Of a stretch of 64,000 nucleotides of DNA, positions 11,084 through 45,011 are shown one piece after another (the stretch's first letter is position 1; the number at the start of each line of letters is the position of its first letter). Source of the DNA: Anaerobacillus alkalilacustris. GTDB taxonomy: Bacteria; Bacillota; Bacilli; Bacillales; Anaerobacillaceae. Under the pieces are notes generated by a model. It was not told where the DNA came from. It worked only from the letters and a program-made list of their open reading frames with translations, and did no database searches. The stretch is taken from contig NZ_MLQR01000045.1 of assembly GCF_001866005.1 (NCBI RefSeq), positions 1-64,000 on the forward strand, read 5' to 3'. The position numbers and the translations under genes are program-made.

Positions 11084-11257
11084 TTATTCAGTTGAAAAGA
11101 TTGAACCTCTAACTTCATTAATTTTTTCAATTAAAGAATCACCGAATAATGTGAATGCTGCAATCGCTCCAATTGCAATGACACCTAAGATTAAGCCGTA
11201 TTCAGTCATCCCTTGTCCTTCTTCTTCTTTAAAAAATTTCATGAATTTATTTAACAT
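11084..11257 (-). CDS. flp: Flp-family type IVb pilin 2
   Basis: A 57-residue pilin, MLNKFMKFFKEEEGQGMTEY onward, then a 20-residue hydrophobic helix and the tail ending in SIFSTE. The EEEGQG-M-TEYG motif is the prepilin peptidase cleavage site with the E5-Y6 pair of Flp pilins. Residues 10-49 are nearly identical to pilin 1 and the C-termini differ, so the pair is a tandem duplication. It is preceded by AAAGGATGG and by its own c-di-GMP riboswitch. Confidence 0.93.
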   Translation of the reverse strand: MLNKFMKFFKEEEGQGMTEYGLILGVIAIGAIAAFTLFGDSLIEKINEVRGSIFSTE

Positions 11258-11361: not shown

Positions 11362-11410
11362 AAAAAAAAATACTACACCCGAAGAATAATAGTAGAAATC
11401 ACTATTTTCG
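11362..11410 (-). terminator. candidate terminator platform of c-di-GMP riboswitch 2
   Basis: On the minus strand, CCGAA..AATAGT pairs with ACTATT..TTCGG. GTGTAGTA and an uninterrupted run of nine T follow. The T-run directly after alternative hairpins suggests that ligand-dependent termination controls pilin 2. I cannot tell by eye whether ligand turns it on or off. Confidence 0.55.
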
Positions 11411-11490
11411 GTAACTGGCTGACCTATCGCAACATCGATGAAGTCCCTATAGCTTTGCGTCCCAAAGTTTCCTATGGTTTGCCTTTTTTA
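11403..11490 (-). ncRNA. c-di-GMP-I (GEMM-I) riboswitch 2
   Basis: The minus strand reads GGCAAACCATAGGAAACTTT, then GGGACGCAAAGCTATAGGG, a GNRA-capped arm, and GGTCAGCCAGTTACCG. The paired GCAAAC / GGACGCAAAG and GCCAG / ACCG core is diagnostic of GEMM-I. It sits between pilin 1 and pilin 2, so pilin 2 has its own c-di-GMP control even on read-through transcripts. Confidence 0.93.
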
Positions 11491-11518
11491 TTTAAAAAGT
11501 CACATATATAAATTAAAT

Positions 11519-11686
11519 TTAGTTTGAAAATACTGTTTCTGCAACTTCATTAATTTTTTCAATTAAAGAATCACCGAATAATGTGAATGCTGCAATCGCT
11601 CCAATCGCAATAACACCTAAAATTAAGCCATATTCAGTCATTCCTTGACCTTCTTCTTCTTTAAGAAATTTAATAAATTTGTTCAT
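11519..11686 (-). CDS. flp: Flp-family type IVb pilin 1
   Basis: A 55-residue prepilin. It has the basic leader MNKFIKFLK, the cleavage motif EEEGQG-M-TEYG, the hydrophobic helix LILGVIAIGAIAAFTLFGDS, and the tail AETVFSN. The ATG is chosen over an upstream in-frame TTG because GAAGGGTGG lies ten bases before it. It follows riboswitch 1 and is the first gene of the two-pilin unit. Confidence 0.93.
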   Translation of the reverse strand: MNKFIKFLKEEEGQGMTEYGLILGVIAIGAIAAFTLFGDSLIEKINEVAETVFSN

Positions 11687-11759
11687 CTTTTTGTGACCAC
11701 CCTTCAAATAGTATTTTTGTATAAATAATATCGATCCGAAGAATAGTACTTAGTGATCA

Positions 11760-11850
11760 CTATTTTCGGTAACTGGCTAGCATATCGCAACTTCGATGAA
11801 GCCCCTATAGCTTTGCGTCCTAAAGTTTCCTTTAGTTTGCCCTTAACATA
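11760..11850 (-). ncRNA. c-di-GMP-I (GEMM-I) riboswitch 1
   Basis: The minus strand reads AAGGGCAAACTAAAGGAAAC, TTTAGGACGCAAAGCTATAG, then ATATGCTAGCCAGTTACCG, matching every invariant GEMM-I block. A long hairpin (CCGAA..AATAGT with ACTATT..TTCGG) follows without a T-run. The AATAGT arm could also pair with ACTATTT just upstream of the pilin 1 ribosome site, so translational control is possible. Confidence 0.94.
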
Positions 11851-11915
11851 ATGTGAAAGCAACAAACGAAAAATTCTTAAACAATTTGTTTAGGTTATCT
11901 CGTCGCTGTAATGTC

Positions 11916-16981: not shown

Positions 16982-17008
16982 AAAGCTTACGTGCTTTTTA
17001 TAGCAAAT

Positions 17009-17262
17009 AAGAAAAGCGCAAGCGCCTTGGTCACGAGCGAAAGGCACTGGAAGGCCTTTGACAGAAGCCGCTCTTTGGCTTCCGCGTGCTTCTGCGTCTT
17101 ACAGCAATGCTTCGAAGTAGGCTTCCTCGAAGCATTGCTGCATGAAGCTATTCAGAGACGTTATTCATGTAGTCATTGAAGTCAGAAACTTGACTTAAGT
17201 GACCGAGCTCGTAGGCGCTGAAGCTAGACAGTTTCCAAGTTAGAAATTTATAAATTCTGATT
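17009..17262 (+). repeat. R1 repeat, long form
   Basis: Full-length copy of about 250 bases: left end AAAAGCGCAAGCGCCTTGGT, the middle with GGCACTGGAAGGCCTTTGAC, CTTCGAAGTAGGCTTCCTCG and TTCAGAGACGTTATTCATGT, and the right end GAAGCTAGACAGTTTCCAAG. The middle blocks are palindromic, so the element folds into a branched stem-loop. Confidence 0.9.
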
Positions 17263-17343: not shown

Positions 17344-19611
17344 TTAAATTATTTCTTGGTTTTCTTGTATCATCATTTTCTTTTTTGGCTCCTTCGTCCA
17401 TTTTCCTAATAGTAGAAATTCTACAAACTTTTCTTGTTTTAGTGGTTTACTACATAAGTAACCTTGAAATTCCTTGCAATCTAAAGTTTGAATAATTGAA
17501 AGTTGTTCATTTGTTTCAATTCCTTCAACGACTACCGATTTATTTAACTTATGACACAAGCGAATCGTAGCTTCGAATATTTCATAAGTTTCATTATTAC
17601 TTAAAATGTCGTTTATAAGGCTTTTATCAATCTTTATTGTGTCACATGGTAATTTTCTCAAATAATTTAAAGATGAATAGCCTGTCCCAAAGTCATCTAG
17701 TGCTAGGGAAATACCCATGCTTTTTAATTGCTTTAATGTCTTTAATACATGTTCTTCTCGATCGATTATGACGCTTTCCGTTATTTCAAATTCTAAGTAA
17801 CTTGAGTCGACGCCCTCTTCATTCAATATTGTCGAAACCGTTGAAACAAAGTCCGCTTGGAATAATTGAAGGGAAGAGATATTTATCGATATCTTCTCAA
17901 AGTTTATGCCCTGTTCTAACCATCCTTTAATTTGACGACACACTTCCCTTAGTAGCCATTCGCCCATCTTTACAATTAATCCTGATTCTTCAGCTAGTGA
18001 AATAAAATCAATTGGAGAAACAATGCCCCATTTCCGATGATTCCAACGCATTAGCGCTTCGGCTCCAGTTACCTCAAATGTTAATGGGTTAATACGTGGT
18101 TGAAAGTAAATAATGAACTCTTCTTTAACTAAAGCTTTTTTCAGATCATTTTTAAGAGTAAACATTTTAAAACTATTTAAATTCATGTTTGGGGAATAAA
18201 TTTGATATTGATTTTTCCCTTCCATTTTTGAATGATACACTGCAGTACCAGCATGTTTTAATAACTTTTTAATTGTATCTCCAGAAGAAGGATAGACACT
18301 AATTCCTATACTAGCTGAGATAAAAAATTCATAATCATCAATTTTAAATGGATTTTCGTCAAATAAATTCACCAAAAATTTTCCAACCTGATGGATTTCA
18401 TCAAAATTATTGGTGTTAGGAAAAATTAAGCCGTACTCGTCTCCACCTAATCTACCGCAAAATAGCTTTTTGTTTAACACATTTCTTAATCGTAGTGAAA
18501 CTTCTCTAAGAAGTTTATCACCTACATCATGCCCAAAAGAATCATTAACGTACTTAAATCCATCTAAGTTTATTAATATAACAGTAAACTGTAGATTATC
18601 TTCTTTTGAGTGAATGATTTCTTCAGCTAAACGCTTTTCAAAACTTCTGCGATTATTCAACCCAGTTAAATAATCATAATATGAAAGGTGGCTCACTTTC
18701 TCTTGTTCGTTAATAGTACGTAAACTGAAAACTATTCCGTTTATATAAGGGTCATCAATATAATTAGTAGTATTTAATTCGCACAGAATCCACGAACCGT
18801 TTTTGTGTCTTACATTAATATGAAAATGTAATGATTTTTCCTGTTTAGCTACGAGATTTTTTAGCTTTTTCGTTTTAGTATCTTCATTATTAAAGTAGTC
18901 AAATAGATTTGTTCCTATTACATCTTCAACTTTGTATCCCATCATTTGTTCTACTGAATTATTTTGATAGATTATTTTCATCTCTTGATCAATGATGCCA
19001 ATCACATCATTTGAATTCTTTGTAAAAAAATTTAACATTCTCTCTTTTTGTATGGCCCGAAACTCAAATTCTTTTTTATCAGAAATATCTTCTCTAAGAG
19101 TTAAGAATTGATAAGGGTTTCCTTTTGCATCTAAAACCGGAAAAATCGTCATTTCATTCCAAGTTGTAGAGCCATCTTTGCGTTTAATTTTAATTTCATC
19201 TTTCCAAATGTCACCTAAAAGAATGGTGTTCCACATATCTTTAAAATATTGTGTTGAATGATAACCGGAATTAAAAACTCGAGTGTGTTTTCCAATTATT
19301 TCGTCTTTTTCATAACCTATTACTTGGCAGCACTTTTCGTTAACAAAAAGAATAACTCCCTCGGTATCGGTAATTAAAATTTTGGCCTCATTATTAATAA
19401 CAGAATTTATTCTCTCGATATCAATTGCTAAGTGATCCGTACTTTCATTTCTTAACATTTTTTCTATTTTGTCATATTCATTTAAAAGGTGGTCAAGCTT
19501 CTGACTAACTTTAATAGTTTCCTCAGAGGATAATCCTTTCAAAGAAGCATGTTTAACCATAAGTTTTCTAGTATGTTCGATTTCCTTTAACAATTCAGTA
19601 TTGTTGCGCAT
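17344..19611 (-). CDS. Spo0E-PAS-PAS-GGDEF-EAL fusion protein
   Basis: A 755-residue soluble multidomain protein. Residues 5-50 match Spo0E aspartyl-phosphate phosphatases (helix, GLSSEETIKVSQKLDHLLNEYDK; SQKLD stands for the SQELD signature). Two PAS domains follow (about 70-180 and 190-310), then GGDEF (GRLGGDEYGLIF, with Y for F and no RxxD I-site seen), then EAL. All EAL catalytic residues appear present: GAEALMRW, NISSLQL, EITES, DDFGTGYS, KIDKS, VEGIET, FQGY. An active c-di-GMP phosphodiesterase is likely; diguanylate cyclase activity is uncertain. The Spo0E part could act on Spo0F-P or Spo0A-P, joining c-di-GMP to sporulation (inference). A decayed paralogue lies at 37.5-38.1 kb. Confidence 0.92.
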   Translation of the reverse strand: MRNNTELLKEIEHTRKLMVKHASLKGLSSEETIKVSQKLDHLLNEYDKIEKMLRNESTDHLAIDIERINSVINNEAKILITDTEGVILFVNEKCCQVIGYEKDEIIGKHTRVFNSGYHSTQYFKDMWNTILLGDIWKDEIKIKRKDGSTTWNEMTIFPVLDAKGNPYQFLTLREDISDKKEFEFRAIQKERMLNFFTKNSNDVIGIIDQEMKIIYQNNSVEQMMGYKVEDVIGTNLFDYFNNEDTKTKKLKNLVAKQEKSLHFHINVRHKNGSWILCELNTTNYIDDPYINGIVFSLRTINEQEKVSHLSYYDYLTGLNNRRSFEKRLAEEIIHSKEDNLQFTVILINLDGFKYVNDSFGHDVGDKLLREVSLRLRNVLNKKLFCGRLGGDEYGLIFPNTNNFDEIHQVGKFLVNLFDENPFKIDDYEFFISASIGISVYPSSGDTIKKLLKHAGTAVYHSKMEGKNQYQIYSPNMNLNSFKMFTLKNDLKKALVKEEFIIYFQPRINPLTFEVTGAEALMRWNHRKWGIVSPIDFISLAEESGLIVKMGEWLLREVCRQIKGWLEQGINFEKISINISSLQLFQADFVSTVSTILNEEGVDSSYLEFEITESVIIDREEHVLKTLKQLKSMGISLALDDFGTGYSSLNYLRKLPCDTIKIDKSLINDILSNNETYEIFEATIRLCHKLNKSVVVEGIETNEQLSIIQTLDCKEFQGYLCSKPLKQEKFVEFLLLGKWTKEPKKKMMIQENQEII

Positions 19612-19838
19612 GATACCACCCTCTTACATTAAATAAACCACAAATTTATTACTATAATCACATTATGTCAAAAAAACACACACTTTTGAATGCATTCGAC
19701 AAAACAAGACACTATCTTCACATTCCAAATTTTTCCCTAGTACATTTTTGTACAAATTAATAATTTTTATCGAAGTAGTTTGAATCATGTCACAAAAAGA
19801 TATATTCTAAGATTAGACACTGTAATGGTTGGTGAACT

Positions 19839-20790: not shown

Positions 20791-20980
20791 TGAAGTGATA
20801 GAGGCGCAATGACCATTAGTACAAACTTTAAGGAGAGTGAGCTCCGTTGACGGGTTTGAAAAGGGGGATTTGCCGAAGCGACGAGTTTCTCATTGGCTTT
20901 GTTGCTGGGTCTGTCATTGAACAAATACAGAACTGTCGTATAGTTTTTAACTATATGGAGGGCTATCTTACGCTAGAATA
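20791..20980 (+). ncRNA. lysine riboswitch (L-box)
   Basis: Conserved blocks in order: GATAGAGGCGC, TTAGTA, GGAGAGTGAGCTCC, GGGGGATTTGCCGAAGCG, TTGGCTTTGTTGCTGGGTCT, GGAGGGCTATCTTAC. The P1 strands GTGATAG / CTATCTTAC close the junction. It lies directly before dapA, a classic lysine-riboswitch target, with a terminator after it. Confidence 0.95.
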
Positions 20981-21036: not shown

Positions 21037-21135
21037 AAAGGTTTACGGTGATCTTTGCGATTTAGCTCTATTCAGAACTTAACATCGTCATTATAAACAA
21101 TGGCGAAAAAAATCTAATGAATAGAGGTGTTCTAC

Positions 21136-22023
21136 ATGAATTTTGGGCAATTATTAACTGCGATGGTTACCCCATTCGATCAAGAAGGAAAAGTTGATTT
21201 TCAAGCAACAAACTCATTAATTAATTACTTAATAGCAACTGGAACGGAAGGTATCGTTGTTGCTGGAACAACAGGTGAATCTCCGACATTAACTACTCAA
21301 GAAAAAACTGAATTATTTAAATATGTTGTAGAAGTGGTAGACGGGCGTGTTCCGGTAATTGCAGGAACTGGATCAAATAATACAGTTGCATCTATAGAGT
21401 TAACAAAAATTGCAAGTTCTGTAGGGGTCGACGGCATTATGTTAGTCGTACCTTATTATAATAAACCAAGTCAAGAAGGACTTTATCAACACTTCAAAAC
21501 AATAGCTGAATCAACAGAATTACCAGTAATGCTTTACAATATTCCTGGACGAAGTGCTGTTAATATGTTACCAGAGACAATTATACGCCTTGCTCAAATT
21601 GAAAATATCGTTTGTATTAAAGAAGCTAGTGGAGACTTAGAAGCGATTGCCAATATTATTCAACACACGCCTGAAGATTTCCTAGTTTATACTGGAGATG
21701 ATAGTTTAACACTACCATTAATGTCAATTGGTGGGTACGGTGTAGTAAGTGTTGCTTCTCACGTTGTTGGTCTTGAAATGAAACAAATGATTACAGCATT
21801 CCAAAATGGCGAATATAAACAAGCTGCCCAAATGCATCGTAATCTATTACCGATTATGAAATCAATGTTTATTGCACCCAACCCAACTCCTGTAAAAGCT
21901 GCACTAGAAATGCTTGGTCAAAACGTTGGGTCGGTACGATTACCGTTAGTTCCACTTACCCTTGAAGAAACACAAATTGTCCATTCTGCATTAGAGCCAA
22001 AGATTTTATCTTCAGCTGTATAA
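21136..22023 (+). CDS. dapA: 4-hydroxy-tetrahydrodipicolinate synthase
   Basis: Condenses pyruvate with aspartate semialdehyde at the branch point to lysine and dipicolinate. A 295-residue TIM barrel: GTTGESPTLT, YNIPGRS with the catalytic Tyr, and the Schiff-base Lys in CIKEASGD. ATG is chosen (AGAGGTG six bases before) over an upstream in-frame GTG within that site. Single gene behind a lysine riboswitch, so it is repressed by lysine. The paralogue used for spore dipicolinate, if any, is not in the window. Confidence 0.97.
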   Translation: MNFGQLLTAMVTPFDQEGKVDFQATNSLINYLIATGTEGIVVAGTTGESPTLTTQEKTELFKYVVEVVDGRVPVIAGTGSNNTVASIELTKIASSVGVDGIMLVVPYYNKPSQEGLYQHFKTIAESTELPVMLYNIPGRSAVNMLPETIIRLAQIENIVCIKEASGDLEAIANIIQHTPEDFLVYTGDDSLTLPLMSIGGYGVVSVASHVVGLEMKQMITAFQNGEYKQAAQMHRNLLPIMKSMFIAPNPTPVKAALEMLGQNVGSVRLPLVPLTLEETQIVHSALEPKILSSAV

Positions 22024-22037
22024 ATGTATTGCGATAT

Positions 22038-22290
22038 AAGAAAAGCGCAAGCGCCTTGGTCACGAGCGAAAGGCACTGGAAGGCCTTTGACGGAAGCCGC
22101 TCTTTAGCTTCCTACGTGCTTCTGCGTCTTCTAGTATTGCTTCGTAGTAAGCTTCCTCGAAGCAAAGCTGCATGAAGCTATTCAGAGACGTTATTCATGT
22201 AGTTATTGAAGTCAATAGCTTGACTGAAGTGACCGAGCTCGTAGGCGCTGAAGCTAGACAGTTTCCAAGTTTGCAATTTTATACTTTCTT
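22038..22290 (+). repeat. R1 repeat, long form
   Basis: About 250 bases, closely matching the 17-kb copy, with only scattered differences (for example CTTTAGCTTCCTACGTGC). It starts 14 bases after the dapA stop. Confidence 0.9.
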
Positions 22291-37450: not shown

Positions 37451-38070
37451 TTACAATTTTGTAAAACCAGTCATATTTATAATCTCAACAAACTCAGTTT
37501 CTTCAACAGACTTACTAAACAACTATCCTTGAATTTCGTTATACTCAATTTTTTGCAAAATTAATAACTGTTGAGGTGTTTCAACCGCTTTAGCAACGAC
37601 TGGTTTTGTTTAACTTATGACAGAGTGCAACAATCCCAACTACTATTTCAAAATTTGTTACTTCTATTTGTATATCCTTTACTAAACTCTTATCAATGTT
37701 AATAATATCACATGGTATTTTTCGCAAATAATTAATTGCAGAATAACCTGTTCCAAAATCCGCTAAAGTACTTCAAATGCCTTCGATTAGGCAAATCTGT
37801 TAAATAATTAAAATAATCCATATAATGGATTATTTCATCGAATCAGAATTTATAAATTTCTAACTTGTAAACTGTCTAGCTCCATCGCCTTTCGCTCGTG
37901 ACCAAGGCGCTTGCGCTTTTTCTTCTATATTCTTTTGTTTTGTTATATCTCGTAAATTAAAGACAACCCATTTATAAAACGGTCTCTTAAATAATTAGTA
38001 GCACTTAATTCACACCATACTAAAAAGCCATTTTTATGTTTTCATTAATTACGTTGAAACTGAAAAAATT
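37451..38070 (-). pseudogene. relic of a PAS-GGDEF-EAL gene, deleted and repeat-interrupted
   Basis: Read on the minus strand. A PAS fragment (KHKNGFLVWCELSATNYL) precedes an R1 insert; then comes the GGDEF start DYFNYLTDLPNRRHLK, which joins directly to the EAL late half DFGTGYSAINYLRKIPCDI. CHKLNKT follows, then a frameshift, VVAKAVETPQQLLILQKIE, EIQG and an in-frame stop, ending TGFTKL. Every piece aligns by eye with the 17.3-19.6 kb protein. Most of GGDEF and the first half of EAL are gone, and R2 replaces everything before the PAS fragment. The gene is dead. Confidence 0.88.
37846..37924 (-). repeat. R1 repeat, short form, inside the EAL relic
   Basis: CAGAATTTATAAATTTCTAA, ACTGTCTAGCTCC and GTGACCAAGGCGCTTGCGC. 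It separates the PAS piece (ends ..KQKNIEE) from the GGDEF piece (starts DEIIHYMDYFNYL), so its borders can be read directly. Confidence 0.9.
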
Positions 38071-40472: not shown

Positions 40473-41936
40473 TTACGAATTGGGCATTGTAATGGTAAAA
40501 GTTGTTCCATGATTAACCTCACTATCTACAAAAATTGTACCTTTATGATCATGAATTATTTTAAAACAAACCATTAATCCTAAACCATTTCCATACTCTT
40601 TTGTCGAATAAAATGGTTCTCCAAGATGTTGTAACTTTTCTTTTGGTATACCCACACCTTCATCTTGAAAATCAATACTCACCGTTTTTTTATTTTGCCT
40701 TACTCTAATATAAAGATTTCCTCCAGTTGGCATCGCTTCAATCGCGTTCTTAACAAGATTTAGAAATACTTGTTTTAACTGGTTTTCATCACATTCGACA
40801 ATAATCTCGTCTGAATTAAAGTCAGTTATTATTACAACTCGTTTATATTTAGCCTCTGTTTTAAGGAATGTTATAGTATGATTAAGGATTGAAATTAGAT
40901 TTTTCTGATTAAATTTTAAGATCTTTGGTTTAGCTAATAACATAAACTCGTCTACAATAAAATCAATCCGCTCAATCTCATCTAATAATATGTCAAAATA
41001 TTGTTGCTTTTCTTCTTCTATCGTTTCATCTTTTAAAAATTCTGTATATCCCCTTAACGAGGTTAAAGGATTACGAATTTCATGCGCTACTCCAGCTGCT
41101 AGTTCTCCAATAAGTGCAAGTTTTTCAGACCTTAATATCATTTCTTCAACTTTTTTTCTGTCTGAAATATCTTTACGGATTGCAACATATTGATAAGGTT
41201 TGCCTTTATCATTCAAAAAAGGAACAATCGTCGTATCTACCCAATATTCCTTTCCATCTTTCGTAACATTTTTCACTTCACCTTTCCAAATATTACCTTT
41301 TCCGATCTTCTTCCACATTTCTTTAAAAAAGCTTGGTCGATGATAGCTAGAGTTTAATATGCTATGACTTCGACCTATTAATTCTTCACGACTATATTTT
41401 GAAATTTCACAAAATGTATCATTCACATATGTAATAATTCCTTTATTATCAGTAATTGCTAAAATCGAAGAGGCATCTAATGCGTGTTTTATATCTGCTA
41501 ATTCTTTATTAGTATTCGCTAATACTTTTAATGTGTTTTTCAAATTTTCTTCAGTAGCTTTTCTGTCGGTAATATCAGTGCGAATTGATATATACTGATA
41601 CGGTTTCCCGTGTTTATCTAAAAAAGGAACGATCGTTGTATGAACCCAGTAGTACGTTCCGTCTTTGGATTTATTTTTAATTTCACCGGTCCATACAATC
41701 CCTTTTAATATTGTCTTATACATTGTGTGAAAGAATTGTTTATGATGATGACCTGAATTAAGGATTCGATGATCCTGTCCGATTAATTCTTCACGGGTGT
41801 ATTTTGATATGGTACAAAATTTATCATTCACATAAATAATTTCACCTTTACAATCAGTTATAGCGATTATTGTAGTTGCATCTAATGCATATTTAATATC
41901 AGTGGTAAAATTACTAAAAGCGTTTGTAGAATCCAA
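40473..41936 (-). CDS. two-PAS sensor histidine kinase (KinE/KinA-like)
   Basis: A 487-residue cytosolic kinase. Two near-duplicate PAS-PAC units (about 10-130 and 140-260; each with TREELIG or SREELIG, HSILNS/HRILNS, and PYQYxxIR) are followed by HisKA with the phospho-His in GVAHEIRNPLTSLRG and HATPase boxes NLVKNAIEAMP, DEGVGIPKEKL, GNGLGLMVC. No membrane helix. Resembles sporulation kinases feeding Spo0F (inference). No partner response regulator is adjacent, as usual for those kinases. Start TTG, after AGAGGA. Confidence 0.9.
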   Translation of the reverse strand: MDSTNAFSNFTTDIKYALDATTIIAITDCKGEIIYVNDKFCTISKYTREELIGQDHRILNSGHHHKQFFHTMYKTILKGIVWTGEIKNKSKDGTYYWVHTTIVPFLDKHGKPYQYISIRTDITDRKATEENLKNTLKVLANTNKELADIKHALDASSILAITDNKGIITYVNDTFCEISKYSREELIGRSHSILNSSYHRPSFFKEMWKKIGKGNIWKGEVKNVTKDGKEYWVDTTIVPFLNDKGKPYQYVAIRKDISDRKKVEEMILRSEKLALIGELAAGVAHEIRNPLTSLRGYTEFLKDETIEEEKQQYFDILLDEIERIDFIVDEFMLLAKPKILKFNQKNLISILNHTITFLKTEAKYKRVVIITDFNSDEIIVECDENQLKQVFLNLVKNAIEAMPTGGNLYIRVRQNKKTVSIDFQDEGVGIPKEKLQHLGEPFYSTKEYGNGLGLMVCFKIIHDHKGTIFVDSEVNHGTTFTITMPNS

Positions 41937-44545: not shown

Positions 44546-44798
44546 TAAAACCAATCCGTACAAATCTATATCTAATTGCGAAAGGACCAACGTAACTGTG
44601 GCGAGAATAACGAACGGAGAAATTCGTCCCGTGTTTTCCTAATCTGTATCCTTAGTCCTTTTGTAGGTGATGGATCTTCAACACTGAAACTTTCGAACTA
44701 TTTTCACTTTTCGTTCACACTTTAGACAAAAAAGCCCATTAATTCCCAATCAAATTTATAGGATAATAATACTATCTGTTTTAATGGGAGTGACATAT

Positions 44799-45011
44799 AT
44801 GTTAAATACTTTGAATTTAATCGAAAAGATTGAAGAAAAACGTCGTGAAATGCTTCAAATATCATTAAAGTATGGGATTTCATCAAAACAAACGATAAAG
44901 TGTAGTCAAGAATTAGATGATTTATTAAATTTATACGATAAATTGAAAAATTACACTTCAAAAACTTATGTTTTCCTACCTTACCTCATTATACAGCTAA
45001 TGAGTATTTAA
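44799..45011 (+). CDS. Spo0E-like aspartyl-phosphate phosphatase
   Basis: A 70-residue protein, two-helix hairpin: NLIEKIEEKRREMLQISLKY then GISSKQTIKCSQELDDLLN. SQELD is the Spo0E signature. Such proteins dephosphorylate Spo0A-P and delay sporulation. GGGAGTGA precedes the ATG (MLNTLNL). A hydrophobic C-terminal tail (VFLPYLIIQLMSI) is unusual and may be post-truncation sequence. It aligns with the N-terminus of the GGDEF-EAL fusion. Confidence 0.9.
   Translation: MLNTLNLIEKIEEKRREMLQISLKYGISSKQTIKCSQELDDLLNLYDKLKNYTSKTYVFLPYLIIQLMSI

Follow-up and report, generated by a model that had tools for sequence, protein, structure and literature searches.

A Spo0E-like domain fused to a PAS-PAS-GGDEF-EAL protein in Anaerobacillus, and the reverse EAL-Spo0E order in Alicyclobacillaceae

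The 64,000-nucleotide stretch of Anaerobacillus alkalilacustris DNA analyzed here (the window) encodes a 755-amino-acid protein in which a Spo0E-like domain is followed by two PAS domains, a GGDEF domain, and an EAL domain, each of which exceeds its Pfam cut-off (Table 1). We read this protein, with a probability of about 55%, as a two-output switch on a single chain, in which the PAS domains would provide the input, the EAL domain would lower c-di-GMP, and the Spo0E hairpin would dephosphorylate Spo0A~P. Proteins that join the same two modules in the opposite order, EAL before Spo0E, are found in the Alicyclobacillaceae, and the evidence laid out below points to the pairing having arisen at least twice, independently.

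The open reading frame begins with ATG, and the ribosome-binding-site-like sequence AGAGGGTGG lies directly 5′ of it. The genome (50 contigs, 90.85% completeness) holds five Spo0E domains; the fusion alone sits in a long frame (759 aa), the other four in frames of 54 to 107 aa. Judged from the sequences, the fusion is no assembly artefact, because the same junction of Spo0E with PAS is present in the single-contig genome of a congener, G003, at 57% identity across query residues 1–124. Autoregulation through a possible Spo0A box upstream of the gene was considered and rejected: TGTCGAA is found 5 times in the window against 7.2 expected, and the box is absent in G003. One copy of an interspersed repeat of about 245 nt (copies 91–97% identical; 17007–17249, 22036–22279, and others) lies just 3′ of the fusion gene, and a 24-base piece of this repeat occurs six times in the window, on both strands. 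A lysine riboswitch (20791–20973, + strand) precedes a dihydrodipicolinate synthase ORF (21127–22023).

Table 1. Location of the fusion gene, its domains, and related features in the window.
Feature	Positions	Strand	Remarks
Fusion gene	17344..19611	-	755 aa, Spo0E-PAS-PAS-GGDEF-EAL
Spo0E domain, residues 7-47, S36-Q-K-L-D40	19471..19593	-	PF09388
PAS1, residues 78-178	19078..19380	-	Pfam; closest solved folds MmoS, NifL FAD-type PAS
PAS2, residues 199-299	18715..19017	-	Pfam
GGDEF, residues 311-468	18208..18681	-	PF00990 136.5 bits
EAL, residues 488-723	17443..18150	-	PF00563 253.3 bits; full catalytic set
Possible 0A box (Spo0A site) TTGTCGAA, weak	19695..19702	-	perfect match, upstream of fusion gene
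c-di-GMP-I riboswitch before Flp-like ORF 11519-11707 (-)	11765..11851	-	Rfam RF01051 78.3 bits
c-di-GMP-I riboswitch before Flp-like ORF 11084-11257 (-) and Tad-type genes down to 3966	11407..11493	-	RF01051 75.0 bits
PAS-PAS-HisKA-HATPase kinase	40473..41936	-	Pfam
Free-standing Spo0E, 75 aa, SQELD	44784..45011	+	PF09388 53.3 bits

A Spo0E domain at the N-terminus had been proposed in the first-pass annotation, and the assignment holds. Residues 7–47 match SpoOE-like (PF09388) with an E-value of 1.3e-13 (51.1 bits, cut-off 23), and BLASTP of the first 185 residues against the free-standing Spo0E of the window returns 46% identity over 50 residues (E-value 1e-11). The SxxxD signature is kept as S36-QKL-D40. 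Its lysine, in place of the Glu of SQELD, had been named as a test point; on this comparison it is within the range of the family and no anomaly, because the signature is given as SxxxD (PMC11115286). Among the free-standing Spo0Es of the genus, 18 have Glu at the third signature position, 6 have Lys, 2 Asp, 1 Gln, and 1 Arg (n = 28; the genus has 39 Spo0E matches, and 30 loci were read out, of which one is the fusion and another, L049, was unreadable). With Lys in 6 of these 28, Lys38 was rejected as a test point for loss of function.

The helical hairpin characteristic of Spo0E is also predicted, as the earlier reading would have it. AlphaFold2 models of residues 1–185 (13-row alignment) and of residues 1–75 (9 rows) give the same hairpin, with helices at 4–25 and 30–72/73 and pLDDT block values of 94–98 across residues 11–50. 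For the 75-residue model, Foldseek ranks 2c0s first, the solved aspartyl-phosphate phosphatase of B. anthracis (E-value 0.037, probability 1.00, rmsd 1.4 over 52 columns); the runner-up has an E-value of 0.49, and no match reaches 0.001. The rows of VIA-align mainly cover residues 66–185 and hence are no test of the hairpin. A profile built on 11 Spo0Es, including both fused domains, retrieves 2c0s (2.3e-13) and 2bzb (1.1e-10) from the PDB; phmmer with fusion residues 1–76 alone did not find a Spo0E structure.

Such a hairpin could also serve as a docking piece that brings the c-di-GMP enzyme to Spo0A, or blocks the phosphorylation site of Spo0A, without phosphatase action, and the output would then be local c-di-GMP breakdown or sequestration of Spo0A. 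The predicted continuation of the hairpin into a long helix (30–72) suits this role, as does the model of C. difficile Spo0E, in which the protein blocks the site where Spo0A is phosphorylated; this Spo0E has an interface with RstA as well (PMC11115286). We nevertheless consider docking unlikely, given that the Asp of SxxxD, described as critical for the function of B. subtilis Spo0E (PMC11115286), is kept in both fusions of the genus and in all 21 EAL-Spo0E proteins described below.

In the enzyme part, the complete catalytic set that the first-pass annotation had read from the EAL domain is confirmed by an alignment that includes the MorA structure: E518, N577, E609, E612, D639, D640, K660, E696, and Q716 stand at the nine catalytic positions of EAL domains. 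The GGDEF domain has GGDEY, and Asn348 takes the place of the first Asp of DxDxFK, which is a metal ligand. The G003 orthologue has Asp at this position, as do the related proteins of G203 and G005, and a plasmid relative (L066) likewise has Asn; no RxxD inhibitory site (I-site) was read in the domain. The GGDEF domain may be weakened, and it is probably a regulator or a weak cyclase. Because the EAL set is complete and the GGDEF domain carries Asn348, phosphodiesterase activity is a likelier output of the enzyme part than cyclase activity. EAL matches in the genome number 12, including one remnant; in the window, an EAL-domain remnant with an internal TGA lies at 37605–37781 (− strand), about 18 kb from the fusion gene.

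The model of PAS1 closely matches the PAS domain of MmoS (3ewk; Z 19.2, rmsd 1.1, 108 residues aligned, 43% identity) and also resembles the NifL PAS domain, so that by fold it would be of the FAD/redox-sensing type, with putative FAD binding. The PAS domains of the PAS-PAS kinase of the window are 37–38% identical to it. This kinase, which we take to have the layout of a sporulation kinase, lies 2.8 kb from the free-standing Spo0E gene.

A search for the domain order, suggested in the first-pass annotation, gave a divided answer: among the matches listed, the exact order occurs only in the genome of the window (G000) and in G003, and the reverse order, EAL-Spo0E, occurs in 19 of 41 Alicyclobacillaceae genomes. 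Within the genus, two of seven genomes (G000, G003) have Spo0E in a long frame. The G003 copy is broken within PAS2, with an N-terminal ORF of 252 aa followed by a transposase-like ORF of 453 aa and then by the GGDEF-EAL part. Just upstream of the split gene (locus L039, 2002–8488) lies an ORF pair that we take to be an IS21-type element, as we take the ORF at the split to be transposase-like. The fused Spo0E domains of the two genomes are 48% identical over residues 5–50 (PF09388 43 bits in G003 vs 51.1 in the window) and have SQKLD..LLNE in common. Their NG86 dN/dS is 0.17 at residues 5–50 and 0.12 in PAS1, values that are rough only, with dS near 2 and saturated or undefined in several regions of the comparison.

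Beyond the genus, we searched with the N-terminal 125 residues, which cover Spo0E, the linker, and half of PAS1, scoring at most 11 candidates per genome. No other match covering both Spo0E and PAS appeared among the matches listed in 397 genomes of the order, and no Spo0E-PAS fusion beyond G000 appeared among those listed in 398 genomes of the class, a sample that partly overlaps with that of the order. The query matched at least 127 of the 397 and 100 of the 398 genomes, mostly through linker and PAS only; the match in G641 is a free-standing Spo0E. The reading frames around nineteen sites, part of those whose match starts before about residue 45 (the G605 site lies outside this scoring), were scored with a profile of alignment A2 and rejected as further N-terminal fusions, the best reaching 5.2 bits vs 84.6 for the fusion of the window; the residues upstream of these matches bear no resemblance to Spo0E. 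Also rejected were a match in G632 spanning 9–124, which belongs to an unfused PAS-GGDEF-EAL protein with upstream similarity by chance; two Lysinibacillus plasmid matches, H1 and H2, which are PAS matches (the H1 protein is without a Spo0E start, and H2 was judged by its annotation); and the one phage-record match to the fusion query, which lies in the PAS part. A scan of the genome contigs with alignment A1 gave three loci (71–178, 47–180, and 64–183), none reaching the Spo0E residues. The viral scan found no relative with the Spo0E of the window alone and seven loci with alignment A2. Fusion residues 1–60 matched 81 plasmid records, and each of the 60 listed matches falls within a feature annotated as a Spo0E family protein. 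By these searches, the exact architecture appears to be rare.

The pairing itself is more widespread. A survey of 36 genomes of the order, each from a different family, gave 134 Spo0E matches, all in frames of at most 167 aa. One of these genomes, G024, encodes a 163-aa protein (L093, 787–1278, + strand; 167-aa frame) with a SpoOE-like match of 28.0 bits and a STAS-like C-terminus, the STAS_2 match (25.7 bits) being below the cut-off of 29.2. A survey of 36 genomes of the class, chosen from the matches to the N-terminal query and thus leaning towards genomes with PAS proteins, gave 99 matches; four lie in frames of 314–359 aa, all from one family, the Alicyclobacillaceae, and the others in frames of at most 164 aa. 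The four long frames encode EAL proteins with a C-terminal Spo0E, both parts exceeding the Pfam cut-offs. Across 41 Alicyclobacillaceae genomes we found 93 Spo0E matches, 21 of them in frames of 308–359 aa that are distributed over 19 genomes and 10 of 16 genera; EAL-Spo0E of this length was not found in the other 22 genomes. All 21 match Pfam EAL, and 20 match SpoOE-like at an E-value of 0.001, the remaining one (G762) scoring 19.0 bits (cut-off 23; E-value 0.0014). All 21 retain the EAL catalytic residues and the Spo0E Asp, and 20 retain the Ser, with pairwise identity falling as low as 26% (alignment from 24 loci, leaving out L126, L127, and L128, which are without a full EAL). A 181-aa frame in G764 looks like a truncated EAL-Spo0E and is excluded from the 21; a similar 181-aa frame occurs in G768. 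The frames in G676 (263 aa) and G533 (187 aa) were rejected as fusions, being without an EAL motif and looking like free Spo0Es in accidental frames. One EAL-Spo0E, WP_245530858.1, annotated only as 'EAL domain-containing protein', belongs to Alicyclobacillus acidocaldarius DSM 446; its gene (L129) lies on plasmid pAACI02, surrounded by spore germination, FapA-family, and response-regulator genes.

In a midpoint-rooted FastTree phylogeny of EAL domains, 13 Alicyclobacillaceae domains fall on one side (support 1.0; 14 of the 21 EAL-Spo0E were entered, and L113 was lost to the length filter), and the window protein pairs with G003 (1.0), the two joining G203 and G005 (0.93) among GGDEF-EAL proteins. 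Four other EAL loci of the window's own genome are outside the tree, L087 and L088 having fallen out and L089 and L090 having been left out at entry. Because the tree separates the two sets and their domain orders are opposite, the evidence points to at least two independent origins of the Spo0E-EAL pairing. When two modules are joined repeatedly and independently, this is usually a sign that they are functionally linked, and the convergent EAL-Spo0E proteins make such a link, here of c-di-GMP breakdown with Spo0E, likelier than a single example would. Tentatively, at somewhat under even odds, we suggest that two or more separate fusions of Spo0E with EAL enzymes, with Spo0E at opposite ends, produced single-chain couplers in which the state of c-di-GMP or a PAS ligand directly gates the dephosphorylation of Spo0A~P; such couplers would connect the second-messenger network directly, within one protein, to the sporulation phosphorelay.

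The fused Spo0E might have as its target a response regulator other than Spo0A. The four other Spo0E domains of the genome leave room for specialisation, the EAL-Spo0E gene of A. acidocaldarius has a response regulator gene about 3 kb away, and the G024 protein with its STAS-like end shows the module combined with other partners; set against these points, Spo0A_C is present in all seven genomes of the genus, and Spo0A is described as the only interaction factor of Spo0E-like proteins known before RstA (PMC11115286), and we hold another target to be improbable. Least probable is a recent, non-functional chance fusion onto a PAS-PAS-GGDEF-EAL protein, a reading in keeping with the presence of the gene in two of seven genomes, the interrupted G003 copy, and the PAS-GGDEF-EAL-PilZ proteins of G203 and G005 as the nearest unfused relatives found, and opposed by the family-specific Spo0E positions kept despite a 52% difference over residues 5–50, by the dN/dS of about 0.17 (saturated), and by the convergent EAL-Spo0E proteins of the Alicyclobacillaceae.

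In the two-output switch that we prefer, the PAS domains would take in a signal and the EAL domain would hydrolyze c-di-GMP, while the N-terminal hairpin would bind Spo0A~P, its presumed substrate, and strip the phosphate as a free Spo0E does. Both outputs would push the cell towards a vegetative or motile state, away from sessile growth and sporulation. We infer further that both activities reside in one and the same protein, and that the state of the PAS domains or of c-di-GMP controls the Spo0E part via the long second helix. Since pdeH, which encodes a phosphodiesterase, is under repression by Spo0A~P in B. subtilis, the two outputs of the fusion would reinforce each other. Most likely, then, the fusions lower c-di-GMP and Spo0A~P jointly, both activities being predicted, and so keep cells vegetative. 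The first-pass annotation had likewise proposed that one chain lowers c-di-GMP and drains the phosphorelay; the presence of both domains and the convergent proteins favor this, and Spo0F~P, which is the target of Rap proteins, is not supported as a substrate. Spo0E acts on Spo0A (PMC11115286). Counting against the two-output switch, by genome comparison, are the presence of the gene in just two of seven genomes of the genus, the split copy in G003, the lack of a further N-terminal Spo0E-PAS fusion among the matches listed in the order and the class, the 22 of 41 Alicyclobacillaceae genomes in which EAL-Spo0E of this length was not found, and the sub-threshold SpoOE-like score of the G762 protein, and the four free-standing Spo0Es in the same genome could make the fused one dispensable.

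The tie to pilus use that had been drawn earlier has a physical basis in the window, where two c-di-GMP-I riboswitches precede Flp-like ORFs and a Tad-type run. The Flp_Fap scores of these ORFs, 28.7 bits for 11519–11707 and 26.6 bits for 11084–11257, are both below the cut-off of 32.2; in the run that follows, prepilin peptidase, TadE, a T2SSE ATPase, and two T2SSF proteins are all above cut-off. Because these riboswitches precede Flp-like ORFs 5.5 kb from the fusion gene, the c-di-GMP enzyme of the fusion could affect pilus expression, as could the other EAL proteins of the genome.

The networks of c-di-GMP control and of the Spo0A phosphorelay in spore-formers are regarded as separate, with transcription as their main meeting point. 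If our reading is true, a Spo0A~P phosphatase and a c-di-GMP phosphodiesterase on one protein would form a direct post-translational link between the two. The separate, reversed appearance of the same pairing in a distant family of spore-formers suggests a protein-level connection between the two decisions, on sporulation and on c-di-GMP, and the fact that it recurs independently speaks for selection in its favor. A published survey of Spo0E was filtered for proteins of 40–100 aa and so would miss fusions (PMC11115286); full-text searches, mostly outside the subscription literature and judged by titles and the openings of abstracts, found no description of a fusion of Spo0E with GGDEF/EAL or a c-di-GMP enzyme. 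A. acidocaldarius DSM 446 is culturable and carries EAL-Spo0E, which makes the idea directly testable.

With the Spo0E-like aspartyl-phosphate phosphatases (2c0s, 2bzb) the fusion shares the PF09388 match, the SxxxD signature, and the two-helix hairpin, which in the fusion is predicted. The known members, among them Spo0E, YisI, and YnzD of B. subtilis, are small and free-standing, whereas the domain described here is the N-terminus of a 755-aa enzyme; the small free-standing form, from which the fusion departs, is usual for SpoOE-like proteins and not strictly defining. The GGDEF-EAL core and its catalytic residues are common to the fusion and the PAS-GGDEF-EAL phosphodiesterases (MorA, 4rnh; DosP; the NCBIfam model DibA), which are without a Spo0E domain in their names or matched stretches. 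Among the 25 equivalog models shown, none reaches its cut-off for the fusion, the best being DibA with 473.9 of 980 bits. The nearest unfused relatives found, in a full-length search of 397 genomes of the order that scored two candidates per genome, are PAS-rich GGDEF-EAL-PilZ proteins of G203 (1004 aa) and G005 (1071 aa), 40–41% identical to the fusion over residues 58–750 and 64–735; they carry additional PAS domains and a C-terminal PilZ and are without a Spo0E match. The EAL-Spo0E proteins of the Alicyclobacillaceae differ from the fusion of the window in their C-terminal Spo0E, in having no PAS or GGDEF match, and in belonging to another EAL clade, but both kinds have the full EAL catalytic set and a Spo0E domain with its Asp kept.
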